This document shows positions 1,284 through 49,829 of a stretch of DNA of 64,000 nucleotides, piece by piece (the first letter of the stretch is position 1; each line of letters starts with the position of its first letter). The notes beneath the pieces are model-generated. The model was given only the letters and a program-made list of their open reading frames with translations, did not search any database and was not told where the DNA came from. Made by a program: the position numbers and the translations under genes. Origin of the DNA: Bradyrhizobium sp. B097 (GTDB taxonomy: Bacteria; Pseudomonadota; Alphaproteobacteria; Rhizobiales; Xanthobacteraceae); contig NZ_CP152412.1 in NCBI RefSeq assembly GCF_038957035.1, forward strand, positions 6,878,501 through 6,942,500, in the 5' to 3' direction.

Positions 1284-1314
1284 TTGAATCGCACGTGGCG
1301 TTAGATTGTACGAT
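1284..1314 (+). promoter_or_regulatory. MerR-type (putative NolA) promoter, copy 1
   Basis: TTGAAT at 1284-1289, a spacer of exactly 19 bp, then TACGAT at 1309-1314. The spacer contains CACGTGGCG, the central part of the dyad shared with the copy ahead of nolA. A 19-bp spacer is typical of promoters controlled by MerR-family activators. It points to the decayed ORF that begins at 1379. Control by NolA is inferred. Confidence 0.6.
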
Positions 1315-1378
1315 CCTACACAAGTGGGGACCACCTCCGACAATCTTGACGCTTCCCGACAGGTACTGAGAATTGCAA

Positions 1379-1836
1379 ATGTCTCAAGCATCCAAGCTCG
1401 TTCCGCAAGACTCAATCACGATGCTAGGATCCTCCGAATGCATTGTTGTCTACATCTCATCGGAGGCTGGTCCAGCCGCGGCTGGACCAAATCACGCGTT
1501 TCGAGATCTGCGCGGGACGCTCTCCCGTCGCACGAGCCGCATGGGAACGGGCGCTCGGCAAAGGCTCCATCTCAGAATTCTCGCCCGTCGTCTTCACATC
1601 AAATGGAATAAAGATTGCAAGACTACACCACGCATGACCCAGGCGCGCGCGACCATGGTTCACTCCCCACCATCGAGTGCATCATTCGCAACGGCTTAAG
1701 CGCACCTGGCTTCTGCCTCGTCGCTCTGCCACGCGACACCTTGGCCCGGGCCGCAAGTCTTGTTCGATCCTGCGGCGCACCGGCTATGGCGTCATCAGTC
1801 GGCTGGCAGGTTAGTCGGCCGAATCCGGCACCTTAA
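1379..1836 (+). pseudogene. Decayed ORF behind MerR-type promoter copy 1
   Basis: An ATG at 1379 (MSQASKL...) lies 65 bp after the -10 of the upstream promoter. Coding-like stretches then appear in different frames: RAAWERALGKGSISEF and VVFTSNGIKIARLHH near 1540-1637, and IECIIRNGLSAPGF with VALPRDTLARAASL near 1670-1760. This suggests one ancestral gene broken by frameshifts. The bases just before and at the start (ATTGCAAATGTCTCA) resemble those of the ORF at 11439, which sits behind another copy of the promoter. I do not recognise the family. From 1837 to 2150 nothing is evident. Confidence 0.35.
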
Positions 1837-2150
1837 AGCATGCCACGCCCACGCAATGCCTCGCATGGCGGACCCGACCACACGATCACCGGAAGCCTAA
1901 GAATGATCACTTGCTCAGCGAGCTCGGCTGCGAATGCCTCCCGTCCGCCTGGGACTCGGTCCCGACCACGATAGGTGCTGATTGCGTCGTTGCCGACAGA
2001 GGACGAGCGCCGAGCGTGGCTAGGTCCGCAGAAGCGATAGAGCCGGCTCGCAGGCACTGGCACTTGACCAATTCCAGCCTGTTTCCCGTTTCATGTTGCG
2101 CGTGCACGGGACGAACAATACAGCAGACCTACCGACTTGAAGGAACAATC

Positions 2151-2450
2151 ATGATTCAAAACCAATGCTTCCAATTGGCTTCGCGCCTCAACGCCTACCA
2201 CTGCGCCATCGCTCTTGCTGTCGCAGTGTCTGCTGCAATCCCCGAGCCTGTTAGCGCGCGCGATCAAGCGCCGACTGCAGAGGAGAAAGAGGCATGCATG
2301 GACGACGTGTTCCGCCTCTGTAGCAGCCACATACCCGATCGAGCCGCTATCACTGCTTGTCTCAGATCCAAGCAAGCGAGCCTCAGTCAGCAATGTCGCC
2401 ACGTCATCTCCGTTCGAGATACAGGAAAGCGAAGCGACGACGCGAAGTGA
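2151..2450 (+). CDS. Small secreted Cys-containing protein
   Basis: This 99-residue protein starts at ATG 2151 behind GAAGGAAC, a fair ribosome binding site. Residues about 1-35 form a signal peptide: a polar start, a hydrophobic run (CAIALAVAVSAA) and a likely cleavage site near VSARDQ. The mature part has four spaced cysteines in a C-x7-C / C-x11-C arrangement (EACMDDVFRLC, then TACLRSKQASLSQQC) around SHIPD. That layout is shared by a group of small periplasmic proteins found widely in Bradyrhizobium, of unknown function. The pattern suggests disulfide bonds. It precedes the carboxylase genes by about 150 bp on the same strand. Confidence 0.6.
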   Translation: MIQNQCFQLASRLNAYHCAIALAVAVSAAIPEPVSARDQAPTAEEKEACMDDVFRLCSSHIPDRAAITACLRSKQASLSQQCRHVISVRDTGKRSDDAK

Positions 2451-2604
2451 AGGATCGCGGACCAGGCGGCCTGTTCGCGTCCCTCACGCTCAGAAGCCGC
2501 CCCAGCCCGACCTGCAGGACGGTCACGCGAGGACAGATGAACGAGCACGGTCGCTCGCAACTGACAAACGCTGCTGGTTCCAGCGCGCTTGTCCGGATAA
2601 GCAA

Positions 2605-4074
2605 ATGCACAAATTGCCCTTCGATACAGTTCTGATCGCCAATAGGGGCGAGATAGCCACACGAATCATCAAAACGTTACGCACCCTTGGACTTCGCTCC
2701 GCAATTGCCTACCACGAGGTCGACGCGCAGACCCCCGCCGTCTCCATGGCCGACTTAGCGATTCCGATCACCGGCCGCACGCCGATCGCGAGCTATCTGG
2801 ACATCGCGCAGATCATCGCGGCCGCCCACAGAGCGAACGCCGGCGCGCTGCATCCCGGTTACGGATTGCTTGCCGAGAATGCGGAATTCGCCAGGACGGT
2901 TAAAAAGGCCGGTATTGCGTTCATCGGACCCGCTCCAGAAACTATCGAACTCATGGGCGACAAGATCCGCGCCCGCAATTTCGTTCAGAGCAATGGCTTT
3001 CCAGTCGTGCCATGCGCCATCGAGGAAGATGACCCGGCGACATTCGTTTCGAGAGCCTGGGCTATTGGAGCTCCTTTGCTCGTGAAGCCATCAGGGGGCG
3101 GTGGCGGCAAGGGCATGCGGATCGTACGCGATCTTGATGCATTGGAGGTCGCCATTGAGCAGGCACGCGGTGAAGCGCGCCGCTACTTTGGAGACGGCCG
3201 ACTTTACGTCGAACGATATATCGAAGGCCCGCGACACATTGAAGTACAGGTGCTCGGTGACTCCTTCGGAAACTTGGTCCATCTCTTCGAGCGCGAGTGT
3301 TCGGTGCAGCGTCGTTTCCAGAAGATCATCGAGGAAACACCCTCGCCGGCACTATCACCAGAATTGCGGACACGAATTTGCGAGACCGCAGTCGGCATCG
3401 CCCGTGCAGCGAACTATCAAAATGCAGGAACGGTCGAGTTCATCTTCAGCGGGAGAGAGTTCCACTTTCTCGAAATGAATACACGCCTTCAGGTCGAGCA
3501 TCCCGTGACCGAGATGATCACCGGCGTCGATCTGATCGCCGAACAGGTCTATGCGGCAGCGGGTCGCGAACTTGCGCTTTCGCAGTCCGATATTGTTTCG
3601 AATGGGCATGCAATCGAGCTCAGATTGTACGCGGAAGCTCCGGAACGCGGCTACGTCCCGACCACTGGGAAAGTACTTCTTCTCGAGTATCCGGATAACG
3701 TACGGATCGACAGCGGCATCATGCAAGGTCAGAACATCACGCCGGCGTTCGATCCCATGCTCGCCAAGATCATCGTGCATTCACCAAGCCGCATAGAGGC
3801 TGCTCTGAACGCCCATCGCGCGGTTCGGGAGCTGGTTCTCCTTGGGTGCGAGACAAACGCAGGCTTACTCGCCCGGATCCTTTCCGACGAGGCATTTCTC
3901 GACGGTCAGTTCCATACGGGATACCTCGAAGAGAACCCGCATCTCGCAGCGGGTAACTTTGCTGCCGGAATGTCTGCGTTCCTGGCATCGGCTGCTCTCC
4001 TGACGGGGCCGGTCCGCGAGTCGGCCGATGCCGTGCCCGAGCTTCACGCGGCGCTCGGCAGCTGGAGGAATTGA
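2605..4074 (+). CDS. Biotin carboxylase subunit of an acyl-CoA carboxylase
   Basis: This 489-residue enzyme carries out the ATP- and bicarbonate-dependent carboxylation of biotin on the carrier encoded next. The N-terminus begins FDTVLIANRGEIATRII, the classical biotin carboxylase start. The ATP-grasp glycine loop SGGGGGKGMR follows, then HIEVQVLGD, the ERECSVQRR motif and FLEMNTRLQVEHPVTE near the active site. The C-terminal biotin carboxylase domain is complete. The start at 2605 was chosen because the family begins just before FDTVLIANRG; the frame is open much further upstream but carries no family sequence. The stop lies one base before the GTG of the next gene, so the three genes form an operon. 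Carrier and carboxylase are separate, as in AccB/AccC, not fused as in most MCC or PCC alpha chains. Confidence 0.9.
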   Translation: MHKLPFDTVLIANRGEIATRIIKTLRTLGLRSAIAYHEVDAQTPAVSMADLAIPITGRTPIASYLDIAQIIAAAHRANAGALHPGYGLLAENAEFARTVKKAGIAFIGPAPETIELMGDKIRARNFVQSNGFPVVPCAIEEDDPATFVSRAWAIGAPLLVKPSGGGGGKGMRIVRDLDALEVAIEQARGEARRYFGDGRLYVERYIEGPRHIEVQVLGDSFGNLVHLFERECSVQRRFQKIIEETPSPALSPELRTRICETAVGIARAANYQNAGTVEFIFSGREFHFLEMNTRLQVEHPVTEMITGVDLIAEQVYAAAGRELALSQSDIVSNGHAIELRLYAEAPERGYVPTTGKVLLLEYPDNVRIDSGIMQGQNITPAFDPMLAKIIVHSPSRIEAALNAHRAVRELVLLGCETNAGLLARILSDEAFLDGQFHTGYLEENPHLAAGNFAAGMSAFLASAALLTGPVRESADAVPELHAALGSWRN

Positions 4075-4075
4075 C

Positions 4076-4579
4076 GTGTATCACTCATTCGAGGTCGACG
4101 GCGTGGATCACAAATTGTGGCTTTCAGCCAGCCAGCAGGGCTACCGTCTCCATCTGTGTGATCAAGTGATCGCCCCCGTCGCTTTCACCCGGCACAGCGA
4201 CAGCAGCGGGATCCTGACCATCGCAGGCGAGAGCGAACCGGTTCGGTTCGCCATCGAGGGCGAGCTCATTCACCTACACATACGCGGCAGAACGCGCGTA
4301 TTGCGCTACAATGACCCATTGCGAGCGCTCGTTTCCGGGAATGACGAGGCACGTCCGCGGGTTGCCCGGGCGCCGATGCCTGGCGTGGTTGTTGCGACCA
4401 CCGTTTCGCCTGGTCAGGCAGTCTCAGCGGGAATGGCGCTGATGATGATTGAAAGCATGAAGCTGGAAACGATCATACGCTCACCACAGGATGGCATCGT
4501 CGATCGAATTCACGTCAAGGAAGGCGAGAGCTTCGAGCGCGACGCTGTGCTGGTCACGCTCTCCAAAGAAGGGCGCTGA
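4076..4579 (+). CDS. Biotin carboxyl carrier protein
   Basis: A 167-residue carrier. The C-terminal biotinyl domain holds the biotin attachment motif ESMKLE, with the biotinylated lysine at the usual place, preceded by APMPGVVV. The N-terminal half (VYHSFEVDGVDHKLW...) resembles the segment that links carboxylase and carrier in fused alpha subunits, suggesting that this gene pair arose by splitting an MCC/PCC-type alpha chain. The start is the GTG at 4076, with GGAGG 8 bp upstream inside the end of the previous gene; no suitable ATG exists. The next gene begins one base after its stop. Confidence 0.85.
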   Translation: MYHSFEVDGVDHKLWLSASQQGYRLHLCDQVIAPVAFTRHSDSSGILTIAGESEPVRFAIEGELIHLHIRGRTRVLRYNDPLRALVSGNDEARPRVARAPMPGVVVATTVSPGQAVSAGMALMMIESMKLETIIRSPQDGIVDRIHVKEGESFERDAVLVTLSKEGR

Positions 4580-4580
4580 A

Positions 4581-6188
4581 ATGCAGCGGATCGGTTCCGT
4601 GGCGGACGTGAACTCACGGGAGTTTCGTCGCAACGACCTCCACAACAGACAACTTGCGGCCGACTTGAAGGAACGCCAACGCGTTGCCCGCTTCGACCGG
4701 CCCGAGCGGGACTTCGAGCGGCTGCGTCGGCAAAATAAACTGTTTGTTCGCGAGCGCCTCACGGCCTTGCTCGATCCGGAAACCCCATTCCTGGAGCTTT
4801 CCACCCTGGCCGCTAACAAGGCATACGACGGCGAGGTGCCAGGCGCTGCGCAGGTCGTCGGCATCGGCATTGTGGCGGGTCGGGAGGTGATTGTTCACGC
4901 TGACGATGCCAGCGTGAAGAGCGGCGCATGGTATCCGCTCTCGGTCAAGAAGATCGTGCGGGCCTTAGATATCGCTCTCGAAAACCGTCTGCCGGTGGTT
5001 CATCTGTGCGACTGCGCCGGGGGATTCCTGCCTTTGCAGGCGGAGTTCTTTGCTGATCGCTACCATGCCGGTCGAATTCTCCGCAATCAATCCATTCTCT
5101 CGAAGATGGGAGTGCCGCAGGTCGCCATCGTCATGGGCCAATGCACCGCGGCAGGGGCCTACGTCCCAGCGCTTAGTGAATACAACATTATGGTCGAGGG
5201 TGCAGGAGCGATCTTCCTCGGTGGCCCCCCGGTCGTGAAGGCTGCCACCGGGGAACAAGTATCCGCCGAAGAGCTTGGGGGCGCCCTCATGCATACCAGC
5301 GTGTCGGGCACCAGTGATTACTTCGCAAACTCCGAGATTCATGCGATTGCGATTGCCCGCGACGTCGTCGCTCGCTTCCACCAGCCGGCGAAGACCTGGA
5401 TCGATCGAGTCGCCCCTGAGCCGCCCGCCTATTGCGCGACGGAACTCTACGGTATCATTCCAAAGGACACGCGAGCGCAGTTCGACATGCGAGAGGTCAT
5501 CGCTCGTCTGGTCGACGGCAGCCGATTTCATGATTACCAGCCGCGCTATGGGACATCACTCGTGTGCGGCTTTGCGCGGCTTCATGGATTTCAAATCGGG
5601 ATCCTTGCCAATAATGGCGTGCTGTTCGGCGACAGTGCGCAAAAGGGTACTCATTTCATCCAATTGTGCGACAAGAACCGAACGCCCCTGCTCTTCCTGC
5701 AGAACGTCACGGGCTTCATGGTTGGCCGCGAATATGAGCAGCGTGGGATCACCAAGGACGGCGCCAAGCTGATCATGGCCGTGTCCGGAGCGTCCGTGCC
5801 GAAGTTTACGATCGTTTGTAACAGCTCGCACGGCGCAGGCACATACGCTATGTCGGGACGCGCGTTTGATCCCCGGTTTGTGTTCAGCTGGCCGAATTCC
5901 CAGATGTCTGCGATGGGTGCCGAGCAGGCTGCCGGTGTTCTCACTCACGTCAAGGCGAGACAATTGGCTCGCGCGGGAGGACGCCTCTCGGAGCAGGAAT
6001 TGGCAGCCATTCGAGAGCCCATCCTTGAAGAATATCGCGAGCGGTCGAGCGCCTATTTTGCGACCTCCGAAATCTGGGACGACGGCATTCTTGATCCGGT
6101 CGACACCAGAACCGCCCTCGCAATCGCATTGAGCGCCTCGCTCAATGCGCCGATCGATGCACCACAGTACGGCGTGTTCCGGCCGTGA
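4581..6188 (+). CDS. Carboxyltransferase subunit, methylcrotonyl-CoA carboxylase beta-like
   Basis: This 535-residue protein moves the carboxyl group from carboxybiotin to an acyl-CoA. Diagnostic blocks are GQCTAAGAYVPALSEY, then GGPPVVKAATGEQVSAEELGG, then AGTYAMSGRAFDPRF, and the C-terminal end RSSAYFATSEIWDDGILDP. These match methylcrotonyl-CoA/geranyl-CoA carboxylase beta chains better than acetyl- or propionyl-CoA ones, but the substrate cannot be read from sequence alone. The start at 4581 is one base after the carrier stop. Leucine breakdown genes that usually accompany MCC are missing here, so its role may be specialised. An acyl-CoA ligase at 12.3 kb could supply a substrate, which is speculative. 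Confidence 0.85.
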   Translation: MQRIGSVADVNSREFRRNDLHNRQLAADLKERQRVARFDRPERDFERLRRQNKLFVRERLTALLDPETPFLELSTLAANKAYDGEVPGAAQVVGIGIVAGREVIVHADDASVKSGAWYPLSVKKIVRALDIALENRLPVVHLCDCAGGFLPLQAEFFADRYHAGRILRNQSILSKMGVPQVAIVMGQCTAAGAYVPALSEYNIMVEGAGAIFLGGPPVVKAATGEQVSAEELGGALMHTSVSGTSDYFANSEIHAIAIARDVVARFHQPAKTWIDRVAPEPPAYCATELYGIIPKDTRAQFDMREVIARLVDGSRFHDYQPRYGTSLVCGFARLHGFQIGILANNGVLFGDSAQKGTHFIQLCDKNRTPLLFLQNVTGFMVGREYEQRGITKDGAKLIMAVSGASVPKFTIVCNSSHGAGTYAMSGRAFDPRFVFSWPNSQMSAMGAEQAAGVLTHVKARQLARAGGRLSEQELAAIREPILEEYRERSSAYFATSEIWDDGILDPVDTRTALAIALSASLNAPIDAPQYGVFRP

Positions 6189-6747
6189 AGCGGCGCAGAA
6201 CACGATGCATGGCTCGAGACATACCTCGTTCCGCTAGCTGAGAGGTAGGGGTTATGATGATAATGGATCCCGCCAGCCTCGAAGGTAGTCGCCCCATAGT
6301 CGATGACGATGCCGCGATCGTCGTCTGCATCTGTCAAAACTTCGAATTTGGCCGTGGCTTTCCCCTGATTCGTTTGAACAAGCGCTCGCCTGCCGCTGTA
6401 ACGAGAAGGAGTTTTCAGTGGCATCAATGAGAGGACATGCAGCACGTCGTTCGGGGAGGTCTGCGCATCTTTCATTCACGATCTTGCAGGTCATGAGGTC
6501 GCGCTTCGATCTAACTGGCATCGATACTCCCGAAGCCGGTAGAGGAGGCCTGCTTCATCGCCCCACGACGGCGGCACCTGCAAGCCGAAAGACTTCGAAG
6601 AATACGGTGAATCGGCAGGGACGCTGCGATCGAGGCGGACGCGGCAAGCGGCGGCATGAGACAGTCCCATCGGTGCTGGCGTCCACGCGCCTACACTGTT
6701 CTCGCCGGCCGATGATCTCCTCTTGAGCGCACCACGAAATGGAGAGC
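6189..6747 (+). other. Gene-poor stretch
   Basis: No ORF here shows a recognisable family or a convincing ribosome binding site. Frames on both strands are short and arginine/serine rich, typical of non-coding GC-rich DNA. No terminator hairpin with a T run was found after the carboxyltransferase stop. Confidence 0.4.
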
Positions 6748-6778
6748 TTGACCCTCACGTAGCGTCAGGTTGTAGCCT
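6748..6778 (+). promoter_or_regulatory. MerR-type (putative NolA) promoter, copy 2, ahead of trpD
   Basis: TTGACC at 6748-6753, 19-bp spacer, TAGCCT at 6773-6778. The spacer region forms the clearest dyad of the set: ACCTCACGT, one central base, GCGTCAGGT. It lies 170 bp before the trpD ATG at 6949, with no other gene in between. A second partial half site, GCGTCAGGTT, occurs near 6915. Confidence 0.6.
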
Positions 6779-6948
6779 CACCAAGGGGCCCACGCTCAAA
6801 CCGAACGATACGCAAGCGTCAATGAGGCATCTGGCGCGCGCGGACGGGGCGGGCACTGCATCAATGCAGCCGATGCCACGTCTCTTTAACGAAAGCCCCC
6901 GTTGAACGGAAGAGCGTCAGGTTTGGACAAGGGACCGTGTAAAGTTCG

Positions 6949-7962
6949 ATGGAAGCGCTTAAATCGATCATTGGAAAAGTTGCGACGGGCGCCACTCTGA
7001 CGCGTGAGGAAACTGCGTTAGCCTTCGACAGCATGATGTCGGGCCACGCGACCCCCTCGCAGATCGGTGGCTTGTTGTTGGGAATGCGGGTTCGCGGCGA
7101 AACGGTCGAAGAAGTCACCGGCGCAGCCTCCGCGATGCGGAATAAAATGCCGCGGGTCGAGGCGGCATGCGACGCCATCGATATCGCTAGCACCGGCGAC
7201 GCCCCGTTGTGTTCGATCAGCGTGTCGACGTTCGCCTCCTTTATCGTCGCCGGGGTCGGCGTTCCTGTCGCCAAACATGCCAACCGCGCTGCATCGTCGG
7301 CCTCGGGCGCCGCAGACGTGTTGGTGCGCCTCGGCGTAAAGATCGATCTCAAGCCTGACGCCGTTGCTCGTTGTGTGCACGAAGCCGGCATCGGCTTCAT
7401 GTTTGGGTCGGCCCATTATCCGGCGATGCAGCGCGTTCGTCAGATCCGGACCGCACTAGGGACCAACACGATCTTCGATCTAATCGGACCTCTGTCCAAT
7501 CCGGCCAGGGTCAAGCGGCAGATCGTCGGGGTATTCTCTCGCGAATGGGTCCAGCCTCTGGCGCAGGTGTTGAGGAACCTTGGTGCCGAGTCGGTATGGG
7601 TGGTTCATGGTTCGGACGGGCTCGACGAGATAACCCTCACCGGCCCGACCTTTGTTGCCGCGCTTGAGGCGGGCACCGTCCGCACCTTCGAAGTGACGCC
7701 GGAAGAGGCCGGGCTCCCGCGCTGCCGCAACGACGTGCCGGAGAGCGGCAATGCCGATATCCATGCCGTCGCGCTGCAAAGCGTGCTCGATGGCGCACCA
7801 AGTCGACATCGTGACGCTGCACTTTTGAACGCGGCGGCGGCATTGATCGTGGCCGGCCGGGCCTCGACGCTGCAGGAAGGCGTCGCACTTGGGCAAGAAT
7901 CGCTTGATCGGGGCGCCGCAGCCGCTCGACTGCAGCGCCTGATCACGGTTTCCAACGCATGA
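6949..7962 (+). CDS. trpD: Divergent anthranilate phosphoribosyltransferase
   Basis: This 337-residue protein is similar throughout to housekeeping bradyrhizobial TrpD, which joins anthranilate to PRPP in tryptophan synthesis. Recognisable blocks are [60 protein letters not shown] and the helical C-terminus. The PRPP-binding loop is unusual. Normal TrpD has GTGGD followed by a T/Y-N-(I/V)-ST motif. Here it reads [17 protein letters not shown], one residue shorter and without the GTGG. Either the activity is lost or the substrate has changed. It is not next to trpC or trpG. The start ATG at 6949 has no strong ribosome binding site, but GGAAGAG occurs about 40 bp upstream. Confidence 0.85.
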
Positions 7963-7978
7963 CAGCCGAGTTGACCGA

Positions 7979-8158
7979 TGTCTCAAGATTCCGACCAAGA
8001 CCAACACTTACAAACGCGGCGAGATCGCTTGTGCGAATGCGCATTGCTTCTGCGAGATTTCAGGGAGGCTGCGCCGCCTGCCCGCGCGCGGATCAAAGCA
8101 ATTCGCGTTGAGCACGCGGCGCGAGAGCCAACGCTCTTCGTCGGCGAGAGCCTGTAGC
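7979..8158 (+). CDS. Possible very small ORF after trpD
   Basis: A 59-codon frame (MSQDSDQDQHLQTRRDRL..., ending TLFVGESL) begins 16 bp after the trpD stop on the same strand. Its composition is acidic/basic and helical, compatible with a short cytoplasmic protein. No clear ribosome binding site precedes it and I recognise no family, so it may be chance. Confidence 0.25.
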
Positions 8159-8220
8159 GGCACGTCGTTGAGGTCAGGGCCCGCGACGAAGTGCGCGCTG
8201 CGCTCCAAAGGAGATAATCG

Positions 8221-8433
8221 ATGATGTCCTCGCAGCCTATGGAAACACTCGGATCTATTGCCATGATAGAGCACATCATTCGAAAGTTTCGAGAATTGAT
8301 CGACACAGATAGCTCGATCCCGCCGGAGCTGCGGGGTGCGCTGCACGCGACGCTCGATGAGCATCTTCTCGATGCGAAAAAGCGTCTTCTTGTGAGAGTA
8401 CGTGAGGGTGCCGATGCTGTTACATGCGGATAA
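8221..8433 (+). CDS. Small hypothetical protein with strong ribosome binding site
   Basis: A 70-residue frame starting at ATG 8221 (a second ATG follows directly), preceded by AAAGGAG at ideal distance. The sequence is largely helical and charged (IEHIIRKFRELIDTD, then ELRGALHATLDEHLLDAKKRLL). It has no membrane segment, no cysteine motif and no recognised domain. The strong ribosome binding site is the main argument that it is real. It lies between trpD and the flavin reductase on the same strand. From 8434 to 8803 nothing is evident. Confidence 0.45.
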   Translation: MMSSQPMETLGSIAMIEHIIRKFRELIDTDSSIPPELRGALHATLDEHLLDAKKRLLVRVREGADAVTCG

Positions 8434-8803
8434 AATCTGGCCGGCGCCCGCCGGTAGCGGAATCGGCATCATCTTGTACGCACGGGCACGTAGGAAGGCT
8501 CCAGCCCAGCTGCTCCGAGCGCACCACGAATCCATGAGCACTGGCCGCACTTTCACCGTGGCAGTACAGCGCCAGGAGGTCTCTTGAGGAGCGCCCGTTT
8601 GAAAAGGGGCGGCGGCAACTCGCACTCCTGCTGAGGCGACCCCAGATCCGGCGCGACGCGGCGAGATATTGCACGTCCGTCAGGTCATCATTGTAGCTGA
8701 TGATCGATGCGGTCCCCGGTACCAATCTGGGCTCGCCGGTCGGAAATCGAGGTCATCACTGCGTACAGGAGACGCTAGAAATGTACAACTCCAGAGACGG
8801 GTC

Positions 8804-9331
8804 ATGAGTCACCACCAGTTCCCTCCTACACTTCGGGAAATTCCGTCTATCCAATCGGCGGAGTTCCGTCAGGCCATGCGACATCTGGCGAGCGGTGTCG
8901 CTATTGTGGCGACCGGAGCCGCCGACGAACGACGCGGATTGACGGTTAGTTCTATGACGTCGATCTCCATGGAGCCGCCGTGCCTGCTCGTTGGCATCAA
9001 TACCGGCTCCGAGACCCATGATGGGATACTGGCCAGCCGCAGTTTTGGAGTCAGCCTTCTCCGCAGCGACCAGGAGGACCTTGCACTGCGTTTTGGCGGC
9101 CAGAAGGGTGCGAAAGGTGTTCACCGCTTCGATACCGCGCCCTGGATTCGAGGCGTCCTCGATGTACCGCTATTGCCGAACGCGTGTTGTTCGCTCGAAT
9201 GCGTTTTGTACGACCACAAGGTGGTTGGCACACATACCATCTTTATCGGACGAATTGTCGCGACCCGGGCAGGCCAGGGCAATCCATTGATCAACTTCAG
9301 GGGCGCGCTTCGAACCTTGCTGCTAGATTGA
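8804..9331 (+). CDS. Flavin reductase domain protein
   Basis: A 175-residue protein of the HpaC/NtaB-type flavin reductase family, which supplies reduced FMN or FAD to a partner monooxygenase. Seen in order: FRQAMRHLASGVAIVATG near the N-terminus, GLTVSSMTSISMEPPCLLVGIN (the flavin-binding segment), SRSFGVSLL, then LPNACCSLECVL and HTIFIGRIV. The start ATG at 8804 places the family's first helix about 25 residues in; the open frame begins earlier (8669) without family sequence. A luciferase-like monooxygenase occurs at 41.1 kb, but no monooxygenase is adjacent, so the partner is unknown. Confidence 0.8.
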   Translation: MSHHQFPPTLREIPSIQSAEFRQAMRHLASGVAIVATGAADERRGLTVSSMTSISMEPPCLLVGINTGSETHDGILASRSFGVSLLRSDQEDLALRFGGQKGAKGVHRFDTAPWIRGVLDVPLLPNACCSLECVLYDHKVVGTHTIFIGRIVATRAGQGNPLINFRGALRTLLLD

Positions 9332-9808
9332 GTGCCACTTACGAAAGTCGCCGTTAGCAGAGAAGAACAGGACGATCGCTGATCTCTGTTAAGTGGCACC
9401 TCCGCTTGGTTGCCCGAAGGACCGAGGCCCGAGTAGCAGCCGACGAGACAATCGCAGCAAGCGCCCGCGAGGCGGCTGGATTAATGCCATGGGAATGCAA
9501 TTTGTGCTGATATCGAAAGCAGTCCTGATCGGAACGGCTACAACTCACCAGAACGGCTCCAACCAGGACAGACCCTTGAGCTTGAGCAATTGCGTCGATA
9601 CCTACCAGCCTTGGTAGCTCCTTTACGATCGACAGTCGCGTAGCATCATTGCCGCGGCAAGGCCAAGCTTCCAAGGCCAACCTTCCGAGGCACACCTGCC
9701 CCATGACAGTAGGCGAATCCGAAGATCTTCGCGCTAGATCACGATACGATTAAGTGAATCTTATCATGATCTTGTGTGAGCGATGCCCTCAGATTCACAG
9801 AGACACCC
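9332..9808 (+). other. Intergenic stretch without recognisable gene
   Basis: Only short frames with poor coding character are present. Near 9400 a TGGCAC is followed by CTTGG rather than TTGC at the right spacing, so it does not qualify as a sigma-54 promoter. The end of the region (9751-9808) is AT-richer and probably holds the peptidase promoter. Confidence 0.35.
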
Positions 9809-10933
9809 ATGTCCAGCAATCCGTTTGGAACAGCTACGATTCTCGACGGCATCCGCCGCTGGGTCGAGATCGAGTCTCCAACGGATCGGCCGGATCAGGT
9901 CAACAAACTGGCCGATCTTGTCGCGGCGGGCTATCGCGACCTGTCGGTCACCATCGAACGCGTTGCGGGCCGTGACGGCTGTGGCGATCATTTGGTCACG
10001 CGCTCGTCCTGGGGGCAGGACGCACCGGGCATTCTGGTGTTGAGCCATCTCGACACAGTTCATCCGATGGGATTCATCGATCGCCTGCCGTTCAAGGTCG
10101 AGGGCGACAGGGCATTCGGCCCTGGTATTTACGACATGAAGGGCGGCGCCTATCTCGCCTATCATGCGTTCCGGCAGATCTGCGCAGATGACACACGCCC
10201 GCCGCTCGGCATCACCCAGCTCTACGTCTCGGACGAAGAGATCGGCAGCCCGACCTCGCGGGCGCTGATCGAGGCCGAGGGCCGCAAGGCCAAATACGTG
10301 CTCGTGACCGAGCCCGCCCGCGACGGCGGCAAGATCGTCACCGGACGCAAGGGCGTCGCGCGCTTCGACGTGCACATCAAGGGCGCGCCGGCGCATGCAG
10401 GCACGCGCCCCGAGGACGGCCGCAGCGCGATCCGGGAGCTCGGCCATGTGATCCTGGCGCTGGAGGCGATGAACGATCTCAAGCGCGGCATCACCGTCAA
10501 TGTCGGCGTCGTCCGCGGCGGCACCAAGCCGAACGTGATCGCCGAGGAGGCCCATGCGGAAGTCGATCTGCGCGTGCCGACCATCGCCGACGCCGACGAG
10601 CTGGTGCCGAAGATCCTCGGGATCACCGCGCGCACCGAGGGCGTCAGCGTGAAGGTGACAGGCGAATTGAACCGTCCGCCCTACGAGAAGAGCAATGCCG
10701 GCGCTGCGCTTTACGAACACGCCAGGGAGCTTGCCGCCGAACTCGGTTTCGAGCTGCTCGATGTCTTCACCGGCGGCGGCTCCGACGGCAATTTCACCGC
10801 ACCGCATACCGCAACGCTCGACGGCCTCGGCGTCGACGGCAAGGGCGCGCATACCTATTATGAGCAACTCTACGTCTCATCGATTGAACCGCGCGCGCGG
10901 CTGCTCTACCGCCTCTATCAGACGCTGCGATGA
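9809..10933 (+). CDS. M20-family metallopeptidase (carboxypeptidase G2-like)
   Basis: This 374-residue zinc hydrolase of the M20/M25/M40 family cleaves a C-terminal or acyl-linked amino acid. Metal and catalytic motifs are in order: LVLSHLDTVHP (first His and catalytic Asp), GPGIYDMKGG (bridging Asp), VSDEEIG (catalytic Glu and metal Glu), TEPARDGG, and GKGAHTYYE near the end (last His). The dimerisation domain begins with RKGVARFDVHIKGAPAHAG. The start at 9809 (MSSNPFG) is preferred over 9776 because family sequence begins a few residues later. GC content is visibly higher than its neighbours, giving long spurious antisense frames. Substrate unknown; glutamate conjugates or amino-acid conjugates are typical for the family. 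Confidence 0.85.
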   Translation: MSSNPFGTATILDGIRRWVEIESPTDRPDQVNKLADLVAAGYRDLSVTIERVAGRDGCGDHLVTRSSWGQDAPGILVLSHLDTVHPMGFIDRLPFKVEGDRAFGPGIYDMKGGAYLAYHAFRQICADDTRPPLGITQLYVSDEEIGSPTSRALIEAEGRKAKYVLVTEPARDGGKIVTGRKGVARFDVHIKGAPAHAGTRPEDGRSAIRELGHVILALEAMNDLKRGITVNVGVVRGGTKPNVIAEEAHAEVDLRVPTIADADELVPKILGITARTEGVSVKVTGELNRPPYEKSNAGAALYEHARELAAELGFELLDVFTGGGSDGNFTAPHTATLDGLGVDGKGAHTYYEQLYVSSIEPRARLLYRLYQTLR

Positions 10934-11355
10934 GCTCAGAACCAGGGGAAGCCGCCGACCGCGACGTGCGTCCGATGACGGCCGCTTGCACATTCGCACG
11001 GCTCGTTGCTCGAACGGCGCAAGGGCCAAAAACTCCCTTCCGATCAGGCCGGCCTGATCGACAATTATCGTCGGATCCGGCACTTGGCGTTGTCACGTCA
11101 GCTGCGACTAAACTATCAATGACGGCGCTGCAGACGTCAGGCGCGAAATCGCCTCCGAGGGCGGTGAGCACCTCAATCGCGGAAGCGCAGGCGTTTGCGG
11201 CAACGGACTCACCTGCTGTGAGTCTAGTCTCAATGGGATGACGAATTTTCTGACACAGATCGAAGCGTCGAATGCTGTCAACCCTGCACTGCTCGGCGGC
11301 GCTTTTCCCGCAAACCAGAGAGTTTTGGCATGTTCATACCGGCTGCCAAAAGGGC
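10934..11355 (+). other. Intergenic stretch
   Basis: No supported gene. The frames overlapping the start of this region on the plus strand are read-through of the peptidase in other frames. Nothing resembling a terminator was found directly after the peptidase stop. Confidence 0.35.
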
Positions 11356-11386
11356 TTGAATCGGACGTAACGTTAAGTTGTACGAT
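11356..11386 (+). promoter_or_regulatory. MerR-type (putative NolA) promoter, copy 3
   Basis: TTGAAT at 11356-11361, 19-bp spacer with GGACGTAACGTTAAG, then TACGAT at 11381-11386. The -35, -10 and flanks are nearly the same as in copy 1. It precedes the ORF at 11439 by 52 bp. Confidence 0.6.
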
Positions 11387-11438
11387 TTTGCGATTGGCAC
11401 GAATCTTCGTCTGCCGTTGGGATTGTGAAGGATTGCGA

Positions 11439-35778: not shown

Positions 35779-36425
35779 GTTCGCCACAAGCCGCTCGCGG
35801 CAGGTTGCAAGCATACTACTAACCCCTCCGACGTGCTCGGCCGCTTTGGCATTTCAACGTCTCGGACGGCGATGCTGTAACAAGGCTGTGCGAACCGGCG
35901 ATGGGTTGCGACGATTCGCCATTGGCGAGCGTCGTGATCTCGCAAGGTGTGGTTTGGCGCGCTTGTACTGCAAGCGGCGGCGTCCGGCACGATCGTGGGG
36001 ACGTCTTCGGCTGCAATAATGTCTGGCTAGCAGAATTAAATTGCTTGAATCCCACACTGCGTCAGGTTGTAGATTGGCCGCCGTGACTAACGCTGCGCTA
36101 CGCGGACGTCGACGGGGCGCATTGGCGAACTCGACGGCTCTTGCCGGATAAGCTCCGGGGCCGCCTGCCAACAATGTTATTGTCCAGTTCGCGCTGCGAG
36201 CGTCGCCGGAGCGGCGAGATCGATCATCGCGGCTACCGACGGCTTCCGGCCGCTGGTGGTCCGCCGATCGCCTTGCTCGCCAATCTAGCGATGATTCCGC
36301 GAGCTTCTTTTCGCGATCGCACGGTAGGAACGGAGTTGATTCGGGCGAGCCAATGAGACTTCTTCAAGCGCAGCCGTTGTCGCTCATTGTATGCACCGCA
36401 AAACGTTTGCGCCGGATAAGACGAT
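35779..36425 (+). other. nodD1-nodD2 intergenic region
   Basis: About 650 bp with no recognised gene. It contains a MerR-type promoter at 36045-36075 (listed separately) oriented toward nodD2. A plus-strand frame at 36141-36356 is without family resemblance. The 5' region just before nodD2 (36405-36425) has no nod box. Confidence 0.4.
36045..36075 (+). promoter_or_regulatory. MerR-type (putative NolA) promoter, copy 4, upstream of nodD2
   Basis: TTGAAT at 36045-36050, 19-bp spacer (central part CACACTGCGTCAGG), TAGATT at 36070-36075. The left half of the dyad is weaker than in other copies. It lies 350 bp before the nodD2 ATG with no gene between. NolA is known in B. japonicum to raise nodD2 expression, which gives this site a plausible role. 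Confidence 0.55.
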
Positions 36426-38346: not shown

Positions 38347-38377
38347 TTGAATCATACGTGACGTCAGGTTGTAGGCT
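38347..38377 (+). promoter_or_regulatory. MerR-type promoter of nolA, copy 5
   Basis: TTGAAT at 38347-38352, 19-bp spacer with ATACGTGACGTCAGG, TAGGCT at 38372-38377. It sits immediately before nolA (ATG 38393), giving a leader of only about 10 bases. Because NolA is a MerR-family protein and MerR genes are usually autoregulated from such overlong-spacer promoters, this copy anchors the assignment of the whole set to NolA. Confidence 0.7.
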
Positions 38378-38392
38378 TTGAAATTGAACAAC

Positions 38393-39106
38393 ATGAGCAA
38401 AGCTACACCACGAAGGCGTCGATGGCGCATTGGCGAACTGGCGGAGGCGACCGGAGTAACGGTACGCACGCTGCATCACTACGAGCACACGGGCCTCTTA
38501 GCCGCCTCAGATCGTACGGACGGCGGCCACCGGATGTACGACCGCGAAAGCGCTCAACGGGTTCATCAGATTCGGGCGCTACGTGAGCTTGGCTTCTCTC
38601 TTCACGAGATCCGTAAAGCCATGGAGCGCACGACTTCACTCACAGACCTACTGCGCAAACATTTGGAGCGAATTGAACTTCAAGTCACTCGTGCGACCCT
38701 GTTGCGAGATCGTCTGCGCAACATGACGACGGACGGCGAAGTCGAGGTAAGTGTAGATGAGCTGCCTGCCACTTTGGATGCCATGTCGCGGGTCGAGACG
38801 CGCAGGCCAACGTCTCGATGCACATGCAAGTTAGCTGCAGAACGTGAGGAGCGGTGGCGGCGGATCCGCGATGAGCTGCGTGATTGTATGGACAGGGGTG
38901 AGCATCCTTGCGGCGAGCGGGCAAAGGCTGTCGCGATTGCAGCGCGATTGCTGATCGGCGAGATAGCCGGAGCCGATTCACGCGTGTCGACGATGCTGAA
39001 GGTACTTGCACGGTTAAGCGCCCCCCGCAGCCTGGCTGGTTGGGATCCCTGCCTCATGCAATATCTCGATCTCGCCCTTGCCGGGTTGGAGGATCAGCCG
39101 TACTGA
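38393..39106 (+). CDS. nolA: NolA MerR-type regulator of genotype-specific nodulation
   Basis: 237 residues. MerR helix-turn-helix at RRWRIGELAEATGVTVRTLHHYE with the RTDGGHRMYD wing, then the dimerisation helix ending near TRATLLRDRLRN. The C-terminal part (CTCKLAAEREERW, CMDRGEHPCGERAKAVAIAA, SAPRSLAGWDPCLMQYLDLAL) matches B. japonicum NolA. Cysteines in the C-terminal half might bind a ligand or metal. In B. japonicum three forms arise from alternative starts; the internal Met in LRNMTTDG and DAMSRVE could serve likewise. The start is ATG 38393; an in-frame ATG lies at 38378, inside the predicted -10 region, and is unlikely. Confidence 0.95.
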   Translation: MSKATPRRRRWRIGELAEATGVTVRTLHHYEHTGLLAASDRTDGGHRMYDRESAQRVHQIRALRELGFSLHEIRKAMERTTSLTDLLRKHLERIELQVTRATLLRDRLRNMTTDGEVEVSVDELPATLDAMSRVETRRPTSRCTCKLAAEREERWRRIRDELRDCMDRGEHPCGERAKAVAIAARLLIGEIAGADSRVSTMLKVLARLSAPRSLAGWDPCLMQYLDLALAGLEDQPY

Positions 39107-39299
39107 CGGCCTCACGGCGGATGCGCACAGGATTGCCGGTCGGCCTTGCTCGAGCTGGGAGCGCGATGAAGTGTCGGTTGATCTGGCCGCTCTGATGCGC
39201 GCCAGCAGCTTTATGGACTCAACCGGACAGCTCTTCACGCCCTGGCCTCGCCGATCGGCCTCCCCTGACACATTGATCGAACGCGCCCTTCAAAGGGGC

Positions 39300-39330
39300 T
39301 TGAACCGCACGTAACGTCAAATTGTAGGCT
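39300..39330 (+). promoter_or_regulatory. MerR-type (putative NolA) promoter, copy 6
   Basis: TTGAAC at 39300-39305, 19-bp spacer with GCACGTAACGTCAA, TAGGCT at 39325-39330. It is followed by the broken substrate-binding protein gene at 39463, suggesting that this transporter gene was once under the same control. Confidence 0.6.
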
Positions 39331-39462
39331 CTACCATGGTCGCGGTTTGGCCGAGCTGACGCGCATGACTTGGCTTGGCAGAAGCAACCGCATCGATCTC
39401 TGCAGGCCCGTCTGCCCGCAGAGGCTGGCGGTTCACTTCAGGTGAGCATTGGGAGCTCTACA

Positions 39463-40702: not shown

Positions 40703-40963
40703 ATGAAGCGACCAAGATTCACAGAACAGCAGATTATCGCGATACTGAAGGAGCACGAGGCTGGGGCGAAAGCGGCTGATCTAGCTCGCAGGCACAAGAC
40801 GTCTGAAGCGGCGGTCTACAATTGGAAGGCCAGGTTTGGCGGCATGGACGTTGCTGCGGCCAAGCGGTTGAAAGCCCTGGAAGATGAGAACGCGAAGCTA
40901 AAGATGCTTCTGGTCGAGCACATGCTCAGTGTGGCGGCGCTTCGCGAGCTCCTATCAAAGTAG
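40703..40963 (+). mobile_element. IS3-family orfA, orphan fragment
   Basis: 86 residues: MKRPRFTEQQIIAILKEHEAG, then a helix-turn-helix (AADLARRHKTSEAAVYNWKARFGG) and a leucine-zipper tail (RLKALEDENAKLKMLLVEHML). This is the complete OrfA of an IS3-group element. OrfB with the DDE integrase domain is missing; after the stop only a few bases of possible orfB remnant remain before the monooxygenase gene. The element is dead, and its right part was deleted. Confidence 0.85.
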
Positions 40964-41087
40964 TGGTCGGGACCCGCCAACTGCAGGTCGTCATGAGCCA
41001 CTCACATCGTGCACGCTCAGAGCCACGCATCCCAAAGAGACGACGCTAAGCGCCAATGATCAACGAGACGTATTTGAGCGCGACGGC

Positions 41088-42158
41088 ATGAAGCAACCCG
41101 GACCCTGTTCCACCATCGGAGATGATCGAGTGAAAAGCGACCTTCCTTCAAGACTAACTTGCGGCATTTTCGACCACTTGGACGACGACGGCCGCGATGT
41201 CGCCCGACAATACGAAGATCGCCTCAAGTTGGCGGCGGCATGCGATTCTCTGGGCTTTTACGCTTATCACCTGGCCGAGCACCACTGCTCACCACATGGC
41301 AGAGGGCCGTCACCGAATCTGTTTCTATCAAGCGTAGCGCAGCGTACCCAGAAACTGCGCGTTGGTCCGCTGGTATTGTTGCTCAACCTCTATCATCCAT
41401 TGCGCGCATTCGAAGAGATCTGCATGCTCGACCAGTTGAGCGGCGGCAGGCTCGAGCTCGGTATCGGACGGGGCTCGCAGCCGATCGAATGGGGCTATTT
41501 CGGCATCAGTGCGGACGCGGCGCCAGGCCGTTATGAGGAAGCCAGCGAAATCTTAGATATTGCGCTGAGGGGGCATACGTTATCCTATCGGGGACACCAT
41601 TTTGAGCTGAGCGAGATACCCTTAACTTTGAGGCCTTATCAGCGTCCATATCCGCCGACCTGGATCGCGAGCAATCGGGCCGAGTCGGCGGAGTGGGCCG
41701 CCGCACATGGTGCTAATCTGGCGTGCGTGGGCCCCTCCTCTGCTGTCCGAAACATTACGGATGCGTTCCGCTCCCATCGCGCGCGCAATGCAACCGCAGA
41801 CGGTCGAGAACCATTTCTCGGGTTGGTCCGCATGGTCGTGATCGCGCAGTCTGACCAAGACGCCCATGCCGCCGCCGAAACTGCTTATCGACGATGGCTG
41901 GAGAGCTTCAAATTCCTTTACGAGCGGAATGCCATTCCGACACCACCTAACCTGCCGCTGACCTTCGATGCAGCGCTTGAGAGCGAGTTGTGCGTCGTCG
42001 GAACACCAGCTTCCGTCCGACAGCTCCTCCTTAATCAGATGGAGCAGGCAGGTGCCAACTACCTACTTTGCCAGCTTGCATTCGGAAACCTGCCGTTGGA
42101 GATTTCCCTATACACCGCAACCACAATTCAATCCGAAATCATCCCTCGGTCTGGGTGA
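41088..42158 (+). CDS. Luciferase-like flavin-dependent monooxygenase
   Basis: 356 residues of the bacterial luciferase-like (LLM) superfamily. Seen: LAAACDSLGFYAYHLAEHHCSP, LSSVAQRTQKLRVGPLVLLLNLYHPLRAFEEICMLDQLSGGRLELGIGRG (the flavin-binding barrel core), RPYPPTWIAS and the C-terminal VVGTPASVRQLLLNQMEQAG. Such enzymes need reduced FMN from a separate reductase; the flavin reductase at 8.8 kb is the only candidate in the window. The start at 41088 (MKQPGPCS) is preferred because the frame upstream overlaps the IS fragment. Substrate unknown. Confidence 0.8.
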   Translation: MKQPGPCSTIGDDRVKSDLPSRLTCGIFDHLDDDGRDVARQYEDRLKLAAACDSLGFYAYHLAEHHCSPHGRGPSPNLFLSSVAQRTQKLRVGPLVLLLNLYHPLRAFEEICMLDQLSGGRLELGIGRGSQPIEWGYFGISADAAPGRYEEASEILDIALRGHTLSYRGHHFELSEIPLTLRPYQRPYPPTWIASNRAESAEWAAAHGANLACVGPSSAVRNITDAFRSHRARNATADGREPFLGLVRMVVIAQSDQDAHAAAETAYRRWLESFKFLYERNAIPTPPNLPLTFDAALESELCVVGTPASVRQLLLNQMEQAGANYLLCQLAFGNLPLEISLYTATTIQSEIIPRSG

Positions 42159-46825: not shown

Positions 46826-46984
46826 CGAGCGCTCCTCTCCAGCGGCATCCCTGCTGCACTTTCCGAAGCACCAGGCTCGAGCTCGCCTAAGCGAGATCAC
46901 TGGCTGGATGGCACGACGCCTCCGGGGCCCCAACGCTGACGGTCCACGTCAGTTGATCAGACATCTCATCTGAAGGTTACGGAG

Positions 46985-47015
46985 CCCCACAACCTGACGC
47001 GGCGTGAGGTTTCAA
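46985..47015 (-). promoter_or_regulatory. Degenerate MerR-type promoter-like site (copy 7)
   Basis: On the minus strand TTGAAA, then CCTCACGCCGCGTCAGGTTG, then TGGGGC. The ACCTCACG/GCGTCAGGT dyad is well kept, but the spacer is 20 bp and the -10 is poor. No minus-strand gene lies downstream. Probably a decayed copy or an isolated operator. Confidence 0.3.
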
Positions 47016-47136
47016 ATCGCTCGTCTCGATGGAGCGGTGTGTCTGCTGTTTCGGTAATTAGTGCCATGCTGAGATTTACCCGAAGCCGGGAGCATCACTT
47101 TAGCCAATTGGCGCTTGCGCCATTCGAGTGAGGAAT

Positions 47137-47946
47137 TCAAAGAACATTAAGGCGAATCGCTATCACGATCGCCTGGATTCGGCTGGTCGCCCCCAGCTTT
47201 CGCATCGCATTCTTGATATGAAAATTGACGGTATTCTCGCTGATTTGCAGGATCTTCCCAATTTCCCAGGACGATTTTCCCTCTGCCACCCAGCGCATGC
47301 AACTGATCTCCCGCTGCGATAGCGCCACTTTCTTTTCACGGCCATTATCACAGGGGCTTGCGATCTCGCCATAGGCGGTGTGAAAGTGCCACGCCAGTGC
47401 GTTGAGATGACCAATGCGGTCTTGAGGATCAGCATCGTCGGACGGAGATGCAAACGACACCACAGATACGCGGCCCAACGGTCCAAACAACGGCACGCTC
47501 ATGCCATGCTTCAGGCCTGCCTCTCTGGCCTCATCCAGTACGCGTCTCTCGTCGGGTTGAAGTTGATAGTGGTCGGCGAGTTGATCCCACAAAAACGGCC
47601 GCGACAGCATGGGCGTCCGCCGGACCACCGGATCGATGGTATGGTACTTGCGTTTGAAGTATCGGTCGCACCAGTCTGGCGGCCACTTCACAGCCACAGT
47701 CGGGGGTGGATACTCCGCCAGCCGAAGTGGCTCGACGAAGTTGAGGGCGCCGTAAGCAACTTCACTGAACCCCTCCTCGGTGGCACAGCTTACAAGAAGC
47801 TCGAACAGCGCTCTGAGCGAATGCGTCTGGTTTGCGCATTCAGTAAAGCTGAAAAGATCCATGATGGGCGCCTGAGGACGCCGATCAAGGTCGGTGTCAC
47901 GGCGTTCGATTGCGCCTGTTTCAGGCGGAGCCAAGTTCCATTCCAT
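47137..47946 (-). CDS. LuxR-family regulator with autoinducer-binding domain (solo)
   Basis: 269 residues. The N-terminal half fits the autoinducer-binding domain: WCDRYFKRKYHTIDPVVRRT carries the conserved W-x3-Y and D-P-V, and KHGMSVPLFGPLGRVSVVSF follows. The C-terminal GerE helix-turn-helix is ALSQREISCMRWVAEGKSSWEIG followed by ISENTVNFHIKNAMRKL. Residues expected to contact an acyl-homoserine lactone are present in type. No luxI gene is in the window, so it is a solo or listens to a remote synthase. The start may be 47946 or MDLFSFTECAN at 47862; neither has a strong ribosome binding site. Confidence 0.85.
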   Translation of the reverse strand: MEWNLAPPETGAIERRDTDLDRRPQAPIMDLFSFTECANQTHSLRALFELLVSCATEEGFSEVAYGALNFVEPLRLAEYPPPTVAVKWPPDWCDRYFKRKYHTIDPVVRRTPMLSRPFLWDQLADHYQLQPDERRVLDEAREAGLKHGMSVPLFGPLGRVSVVSFASPSDDADPQDRIGHLNALAWHFHTAYGEIASPCDNGREKKVALSQREISCMRWVAEGKSSWEIGKILQISENTVNFHIKNAMRKLGATSRIQAIVIAIRLNVL

Positions 47947-48479
47947 GACCTGAACTCTTGGGTTTGTTCTTCGTGAAGTCTGGAGCGCTCGTATGCTGCG
48001 TCAGGCGCCATTCCCGAATTCGTTGCCCTGCCGCCAGCCGCAGCGGCGTGATCGTCGCCGTCAAACGGCCGAGGTGCCGCGGCCATCCTTCGACCCAGGC
48101 TGAACGGCGCGCCGCAACCACAGCGCCGATGCACCCTCAATTTGATCTGTCCGGCTCGCGGATAAGGCACTGGCGAAATCGATGATCGCCGCAATGTTGT
48201 CCGTGTTGATGGTCTGCGCCTTCGATGCCGTTCCGGCGCCCAATTGCCCTGGCAATGCAGGCGGTGACAGAAGGTCTGATTGCTGGTCTGACCGACGTGC
48301 GCGAGCGATCGATCTGAGGTGATCCGACGGTCGTAAAGACTTCACTGGCGATACGAACCAAACCGCACCAGCGGCTAGGACGTCGGCACAGGTCAGATTA
48401 GGTTGTGCGAGACCGGGGTCCGGCCTGACTGACACTTCGTTCGGTCTCAAGGGCGAGCACGAGGGGGCCCCAGGCGCTG
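47947..48479 (-). other. Degenerate stretch between luxR-type gene and etfB-like remnant
   Basis: No intact gene. Minus-strand frames such as GTASKAQTINTDNIAAIIDF near 48190-48240 look coding and may belong to the decayed gene to the right, but I cannot place them in a family. Confidence 0.25.
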
Positions 48480-48857
48480 CACTTCGCGATCTCGGTGAGC
48501 TAGAGCACGCCGACTTGCTTGGAGGTGCCAGGCTCCACCTGCTCGATATCGGCATCGATGCTCTGCTTGCTGGCGAAGATGATGGGGGCGTCACTTTTCT
48601 TCCCAATCTTGCAGATTGCCATCGCGCACCCTTGGCTGGTCCTCCGCCGTTCGTCGGCGTCGAGGGCGCGATCGATGAGCAACACGCAACAGTCGACGCA
48701 AAAGGTAACCGCCTAGCATCAGTGCCCGGCCTCTGAGGCGTTCCGTCAGGCAGGTCCGGCGCGAATGAATCGACGGAGCAAATAATGGTCGCGTCAGAGG
48801 CGCAACGGGAGATACGCGGCGTCGCGAGACCTGCTTGATGCAGAGGACACTTGGCAT
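48480..48857 (-). pseudogene. Remnant of an electron transfer flavoprotein beta (fixA-like) gene
   Basis: The ATG at 48857 starts MPSVLCIKQVSRR, the FixA/EtfB N-terminus. Further parts lie in another frame: CVLLIDRALDADERRR, then ASKQSIDADIEQVEPGTSKQVGVLQLTE, which corresponds to GKQTIDGDTAQVGPGIAKRLGVLQLTY in fixA at 18.2 kb. Gaps and frame changes between these blocks show that it is dead. It is therefore a second, decayed fixA/etfB copy in the same island. Confidence 0.7.
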
Positions 48858-49829
48858 GCGCAACTCCAGAGGGAGAGGACCTGTGGATCGGATCAGCAAG
48901 TGTCGTACCAATTGTCGGGCGCGTTAGAATCAACCGTCCAGACAAGCGCTTGACAGGATAGCGATCGGTTCCCGCGTACTAAGCGCATTGAAGCAATCGT
49001 GACACCGGGAGGAGGAAACGCGACAGCGCCGTTTGCGCCAGCTGCTGGGAGCGGGCTGGATGCTCAATCCGTCTCTTCGCTGCGACGACCTTCCAGCACG
49101 CGCGCATGGCTGCCAGCCCCGCGTGGTGAGCTGTTTAGATTTGGCGACGGGACGGGATGCCGCCAAGGCGCCCCGACGCACTTTGCCGGGGTTGGAAGTG
49201 CGCCGGGCCCGCCCCAACATCATCAGTACATCCGTGATGATGCTTGCGGCAATGAGACAAGCAGCGTGGCGGAATTGAGGCTCAACCATTTTTCCAACTT
49301 GGGGTCCAAAATGTTTTCATGCGGGCTCCCAGGGACTTGAACCGCACGTAGCGTCAAGTTGTAGGATCTCGCATTTGGCGTTTTCATCTAACAAGCAACT
49401 GCTTGTCGGTGACATCACCAGGCTCGGAACGGGATTTCGATGCACGCTCCGCTGGGATTCTTGCTGGTGACGCGAGATCCACCGAGACCAAGCGCCATTC
49501 CGCCCCAAGGGGCCAGATCTAATCCGCGGGTTGTCCCTGATGATCGAGTTGCCTTTGAATGAATCTTGAATGAACTCCGCAACAGCCGAAGGCAAACCTG
49601 CTGCATGATCGAAAGCGCCTCGATTCGTGAACAGCGCAGCGCCCCCTGCGCTATCACTGCGTGTTGAAGCTTTCAGTGTACACAGAGGCTATTTGTTCGA
49701 CCTGCTTGCACTTTTGATCTGTGCTGGCAGCACAGACGTAGAGAATGCAGCAACGAGGAGCGTGCGACCATCGCATATGCAATTCCTTCCTAGTAAACGA
49801 GAACGGGAGCTGATTTCAAAGCGGGCGCG
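48858..49829 (+). other. Gene-poor stretch containing MerR-type promoter copy 8
   Basis: No supported gene. After the promoter at 49337-49367 a 40-codon frame (ATG 49440, MHAPLGFLLVTRDPPRPS) opens; a plus-strand frame at 49627-49833 is also of unclear value. Confidence 0.3.
49337..49367 (+). promoter_or_regulatory. MerR-type (putative NolA) promoter, copy 8
   Basis: TTGAAC at 49337-49342, 19-bp spacer with GCACGTAGCGTCAAG, TAGGAT at 49362-49367. Nearly identical to copy 6. It has the best -10 of the set. The downstream 450 bp contain no clear gene before hemN. Confidence 0.6.

Follow-up and report, generated by a model that had tools for sequence, protein, structure and literature searches.

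MerR-family regulators usually control small sets of targets, and they act at promoters in which a dyad operator lies within a spacer of 19-20 bp. NolA, a member of this family from soybean-type root-nodule bacteria, has since 1991 been examined as a nodulation regulator that acts in host specificity and feedback. According to the accessible parts of the literature, it activates itself and nodD2 (PMC9927474, introduction; PMC5596368; Garcia 1996 and Loh 1999 as cited), and in the available part of PMC9909328 it is tabulated beside TipA among the multidrug-resistance MerR factors, with genistein listed as its signal. The TipA class itself includes TipAL of Streptomyces lividans, Mta of Bacillus subtilis and SkgA of Caulobacter crescentus (PMC7762955, cited here and below for its available part). 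In this study, we describe a repeated promoter element, the NolA box, in a 64,000-nt stretch of the Bradyrhizobium sp. B097 genome (NZ_CP152412.1, positions 6,878,501 to 6,942,500 of the forward strand), which is referred to as the window. Judged by the sequence evidence, this element is very probably the operator and promoter at which NolA acts, and through which it would switch on promoters of the symbiosis island; we put the probability of this reading at about 0.88.

The initial annotation of the window had placed seven plus-strand copies of the element at 1284, 6748, 11356, 36045, 38347, 39300 and 49337. TTGA was found at every one of these bases, and the spacer was exactly 19 bp in all seven. 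The -10 consensus given there, TASRWT, held when read strictly at four of the seven sites but failed at 6748, 38347 and 39300, where the hexamer is TAGCCT or TAGGCT; TASNNT fits all seven. A 28-base pattern built from the seven sites, allowing up to three mismatches, matched exactly these seven places in the window and gave no match in 100 dinucleotide shuffles. All seven are genuine, and such a number far exceeds what chance would give. We also scored the window with a weight matrix trained on 173 sites, among them those of this genome; the sites outside the genus were left out of the training, as were those of G046, which at the loci compared is the B. guangxiense plasmid. The seven sites scored 41.6 to 52.3, and the next best place other than a proposed eighth site scored -1.5. 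The eighth site, on the minus strand, was present in sequence with a 20 bp spacer, but its score of 9.5 was poor; it points towards the 3' end of a gene on the opposite strand and is probably a degenerate, inactive copy. Beside it lies a gene for a LuxR-type autoinducer-binding regulator (PF03472, PF00196; 47137-47946, minus strand).

Across the whole genome of 9,252,481 bp, the pattern (up to three mismatches) revealed 18 sites, all within 6,693,736-7,397,152, and this 0.70 Mb stretch also carries nodA, nodD1, nodD2 and nolA. The reversed pattern had no match in the 9.25 Mb. All 18 sites have the 19 bp spacer, a spacing that the search pattern itself fixes. The spacer dyad reported earlier was present but imperfect: at distances 1 to 10 from the centre, the pairs hold in 11, 13, 18, 16, 1, 5, 10, 8, 16 and 16 of the 18 sites, with the fifth and sixth pairs mostly broken. 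Information content is 1.30 bits per base in the 33-base core, as compared with 0.12 in the 60 bases before it and 0.06 in the 60 bases after it, and many spacer bases are conserved as strongly as the hexamers. A mobile repeat could in principle have spread such copies without any regulon being formed, and two placements recall this: a DDE_3 transposase fragment follows one site of this genome, and in B. guangxiense a transposase gene stands behind one of the sites. However, the element is not a copied repeat because the sequences flanking the 18 sites differ (top pairwise identities of 47% and 52% over 60 bp), and in different genomes the same families of genes have sites in front of them; we regard the mobile-repeat explanation as negligible. 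The 18 copies look like separate sites kept by selection. Additionally, the genome's own sites (L001-L018) showed a conserved A five bases ahead of the motif (1.3 bits), often within AAAG or AAAT, which suggests an extended upstream element.

As for the regulator, a search with PF13411 revealed 13 MerR_1 genes in the genome, and nolA alone lies inside the site-bearing stretch, in agreement with the initial annotation, which took NolA to be the only MerR protein of the window. The 38347 copy does stand directly before nolA, as had been described. The best upstream matrix score was 48.9 for nolA, 13.7 for a MerR gene off the island (L023, G000:C1:1087065) and -21.4 or lower for the other eleven; the weakly related L023 site is perhaps a paralogous operator. 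We then surveyed 265 Bradyrhizobium genomes for the motif (up to two mismatches) and for NolA (E up to 1e-30). The motif was found in 140 genomes and NolA in 137; 137 had both, three the motif alone, none NolA alone, and 125 neither. The annotation had reasoned that a motif equally frequent in genomes lacking nolA would speak against NolA, and the frequencies were 137 of 137 NolA genomes versus 3 of the 128 others; by this test NolA was not refuted. The reversed-pattern control gave no match in any of the 265 genomes. Each NolA genome carries 3 to 26 sites, with a median of 12, and in all 30 nolA loci compared (the best 30 of 138 matches) a site begins 32 or 34 bp ahead of the NolA match. The short NolA genes of G046 and G114 also have an upstream site. 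In the same 30 loci (L062-L091), a second site follows the first by about 0.84-0.96 kb, an arrangement like that of window 38347-39330.

Another MerR-family regulator of the genome might bind the sites in place of NolA. Twelve other MerR_1 genes are available for such a role, the operator type is common to TipA-class proteins, L023 has its weakly related upstream site, and one genome (G079) has six sites and other MerR genes while no NolA was found in it. None of the twelve, however, lies in the site stretch or has a strong upstream site, and the sites track nolA over the 265 genomes. In particular, G037 and G133, in which NodA and NodC are present and NolA was not found in the assemblies, have one site each versus the median of 12 in NolA genomes. 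We therefore consider a different MerR regulator unlikely. In G037, nolA may be missing from the assembly rather than from the genome because the contig ends 2.2 kb from the start of the NodA match, on the side on which nolA is expected.

To place the element beyond the genus, the genomes of about 85,000 species were scanned for exact matches, and at least 120 loci were found. Among the matches listed, 115 loci were from Bradyrhizobium and five from elsewhere (counted by eye). Four of these five, from Laceyella, Lihuaxuella, Archangium and a Myxococcales metagenome-assembled genome, stand directly before a MerR gene; the fifth, from Lentibacillus, is followed by 2.5 kb in which no complete MerR gene occurs. 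By eye, the two myxobacterial MerR proteins resemble NolA up to the C-terminus, and their two operator copies form the full palindrome. At these two loci (L213 and L228), the NolA-like gene with its palindromic operator is followed by an alpha/beta-hydrolase-like frame, again as judged by eye.

The sequences of the fluorescence-polarization probes for TipAL, Mta and SkgA are TTGCACCTCACGTCACGTGAGGAGGC, TTGACCCTAACGTTGCGTGATTGTTT and TTGACCCTCACGCCACGTCAGACCTG, respectively (PMC7762955). Upon alignment at TTG with the NolA pattern, the tipA and mta probes each matched 17 and the skgA probe 16 of the 22 specified bases, and each probe outscored every one of its 20,000 shuffles. The probes share 18-19 of 26 bases with window site 6748. 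On this alignment, the predicted NolA operator is of the same type and in the same register as the TipA-class operators, with a right half of its own. The MerR-promoter architecture noted at the outset was supported, with a 19 bp spacer enclosing a dyad and an operator of the published TipA-class type. The same evidence bears on whether the sites simply represent a sigma-70 or alternative-sigma promoter of an ordinary kind, found on the symbiosis island and needing no MerR activator. The nolA copy has been given as a potential sigma-70 promoter, TTGAAT-N16-TTGTAGGCT (PMC5596368), and a genome-wide promoter discovery in USDA 110 yielded RpoD- and RpoN-like motifs only. In contrast, the 19 bp spacer throughout, the conservation of many spacer bases, the occurrence of the same sequence before MerR genes in Firmicutes and myxobacteria and the likeness to published TipA-class operators all speak against this, and a promoter type without a MerR activator is very unlikely.

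One published study found no NolA site upstream of nodD2, in a figure that spans about 250 bp (PMC5596368). Between the nodD2 site described here and the start of nodD2 lie 350 nt, and we infer that the earlier search probably missed it because only about 250 bp were covered. Deletion of nolA in B. guangxiense CCBAU 53363 changed 11 genes, as described in the available part of PMC9927474, and our comparison used four genes named in its section 8. The plasmid of this strain has four sites by pattern and a fifth by matrix, the matrix having covered about 199 kb of its 979 kb, in four stretches. One site precedes the short nolA and another, with three mismatches, precedes X268_RS37715-X268_RS37710. 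X268_RS37710 is the published luciferase-like (LLM) oxidoreductase gene of the nolA mutant, and it is a 60% identical homologue of the window LLM monooxygenase (40929-42158).

Several observations weigh against control of the sites by NolA. The co-occurrence of motif and nolA is partly linkage, and it is by itself no proof of binding because nolA and the sites share one symbiosis island. The G079 assembly, with its six sites, yielded neither NodA nor NodC in addition to lacking a detectable NolA, and in G246 (ORS 285-like) we found NolA and nine other sites, none of them upstream of nolA. The TipA-class probes had matrix scores of -0.5 to 3.4, far below those of NolA sites, which marks them as related and not identical. 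The target genes of some sites are uncertain because their leaders are 650-900 nt long. In B. guangxiense, the X268_RS37710 site is weak, with three mismatches and a score of 28.7, which is the low end of the training range; for virK and X268_RS35990, no site was found by the pattern and matrix scan. The nopP promoter gave no gel shift with NolA, and NolA did not regulate nod genes in CCBAU 53363, both according to the available part of PMC9927474; this strain has a single nodD. Judged by its sites, direct control fits one of the four named nolA-mutant genes.

The NolA protein was compared with known structures and families. Its N-terminal domain matched PF13411 (E 1.3e-20) and PF00376 (E 2.4e-15), and the NolA family profile found TipAN (2vz4) as the best solved match, at 7.7e-24. 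The nearest folds were MtaN-DNA, TipAN-DNA and others, with SkgA close. NolA itself fell below the threshold of the Pfam TipAS model (PF07739). By these profile and fold comparisons, NolA resembles TipA-class regulators in both domains, which suggests that it is a diverged TipA-class protein and a relative of antibiotic-sensing regulators. By analogy with that class, the C-terminal half of full-length NolA would therefore probably sense a small molecule.

Taken as an operator-promoter of NolA, the element suggests the following mechanism. A NolA dimer would bind the imperfect dyad AAYCNNACGYNRCGTCARRTT, which occupies a sigma-70 promoter's overlong spacer of 19 bp, and would distort the DNA as MerR, Mta and TipA do, so that the two hexamers are lined up and transcription can start. 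We infer that NolA would in this way turn on its own gene, nodD2 (a gene that reduces nod expression) and a set of symbiosis-island promoters, many of which precede genes for metabolic functions or secreted proteins. At somewhat less than even odds, these elements may be joined into one reading, in which NolA is a regulator of the TipA-class drug-sensor type recruited to symbiosis. The TipAS-like half of the full-length form would bind a plant or bacterial small molecule, the in-frame products NolA2 and NolA3 would be counterparts of the ligand-trapping TipAS, and about a dozen operator copies would command an island regulon; among its members would be nodD2, the gene for the nod repressor, and an adjacent small-molecule cluster (acyl-CoA carboxylase, trpD-type enzyme, CoA ligase and PGM1-type peptide ligase). 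We put this recruitment lower because many sites are retained where NolA is a short form lacking the sensor half. What is new here is the NolA box, its candidate regulon and the description of NolA as a diverged TipA-class protein. The box provides a concrete candidate regulon for the sequenced Bradyrhizobium strains and could account for the response of nolA and nodD2 to NolA; the kinship directs the search for the NolA signal to TipA-class ligand chemistry.

The features of the window are collected in Table 1.

Table 1. Proposed NolA-box promoters, nolA and the degenerate copy in the 64,000-nt window (ORF, open reading frame)
Feature	Position	Strand	Remarks
NolA-box promoter	1284..1314	+	First family-annotated gene downstream: biotin carboxylase 2215-4074, then carboxyltransferase 4491-6188; about 900 nt to ORF start, target less certain
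NolA-box promoter	6748..6778	+	Precedes trpD-type phosphoribosyltransferase 6949-7962; homologue in another genome (9,105,828 bp) also has a site in front
NolA-box promoter	11356..11386	+	Downstream acyl-CoA ligase 12177-13877 (about 790 nt off) and PGM1-type peptide ligase 14041-15363
NolA-box promoter of nodD2	36045..36075	+	Between nodD1 and nodD2 (36426-37409); 350 nt before ATG
NolA-box promoter of nolA	38347..38377	+	-10 ends 15 nt ahead of ATG at 38393
nolA	38393..39106	+	237 amino acids; MerR DNA-binding domain and C-terminal domain resembling TipAS/AlbA
NolA-box promoter after nolA	39300..39330	+	Downstream: broken periplasmic-binding-protein gene (39370) and LLM monooxygenase 40929-42158
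NolA-box promoter	49337..49367	+	Downstream radical-SAM/HemN-like frames 50016-51187; about 650 nt to ORF
Degenerate site	46984..47015	-	20 bp spacer, score 9.5

The candidate targets in the window are nodD2, nolA, the broken binding-protein gene with the LLM monooxygenase, the trpD-type gene, the acyl-CoA carboxylase genes, the CoA ligase with the PGM1-type peptide ligase, and the radical-SAM/HemN-like gene. Elsewhere in the genome, the sites precede genes for an FAD oxidoreductase, a SPASM radical-SAM protein, a response regulator, a class-V aminotransferase, an SNase and a carbonic anhydrase. In the other genome, of 9,105,828 bp, eight sites were found before nolA, the binding protein, nodD2, trpD, a partial CoA-ligase match, the response regulator, a small cysteine-containing protein and a doubtful transposase fragment. 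For the genus, targets were tallied over motif-only Bradyrhizobium loci with at least 2 kb downstream (133 of 178 sites, 45 being dropped); counts that include the 30 loci fetched by NolA itself are inflated and were not used. The first recognised target of the 133 sites was the binding protein in 19, nolA in 16, nodD2 in 15 and the HemN-like gene in 8, and 35 had none.

Some neighbouring genes were also examined. The periplasmic-binding-protein gene at 39370-39925 looks frameshifted and cut short: its similarity to a 453-residue frame of a relative runs in frame 1 to 39768 and in frame 2 to 39925, and then ends. Genes for an acyl-CoA carboxylase, a trpD-type enzyme, a flavin reductase, an M20 peptidase, a CoA ligase and a PGM1-type peptide ligase lie together at 2215-15363, behind three NolA boxes, and judged from their families the group looks like a small-molecule gene cluster. 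Behind the sites L009 (G000:C1 near 7396140) and L234, a gene family encodes a protein with repeats like LANLVNGFSKWPEEA, which may be similar to the SKWP-repeat effectors.

Finally, the NolA system was compared with the systems described before. The general MerR promoters of MerR, CueR and BmrR share the 19 bp spacer enclosing a dyad (cf. the available part of PMC9909328) but differ from the NolA box in the sequence of that dyad. For NolA itself, both targets reported by Garcia 1996 and Loh 1999, nolA and nodD2, have a site here, whereas the earlier descriptions, as far as they are cited in the available parts of PMC5596368, PMC9927474 and PMC9909328, left the binding sequence undefined. The TipA class (PMC7762955) is alike in the operator type predicted from sequence, its register and its overlap with the -35 hexamer, in the regulation of the regulator's own gene as reported for NolA, in the combination of a MerR DNA-binding domain with a TipAS-like C-terminal half, and in the production of several proteins from one gene through alternative starts (TipAL and TipAS; NolA1, NolA2 and NolA3). 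In contrast to that class, which is described as a minimal autoregulated drug-resistance system (PMC7762955), several lineages carry a short NolA without the TipAS-like half, and NolA has many sites on the island, with a median of 12.

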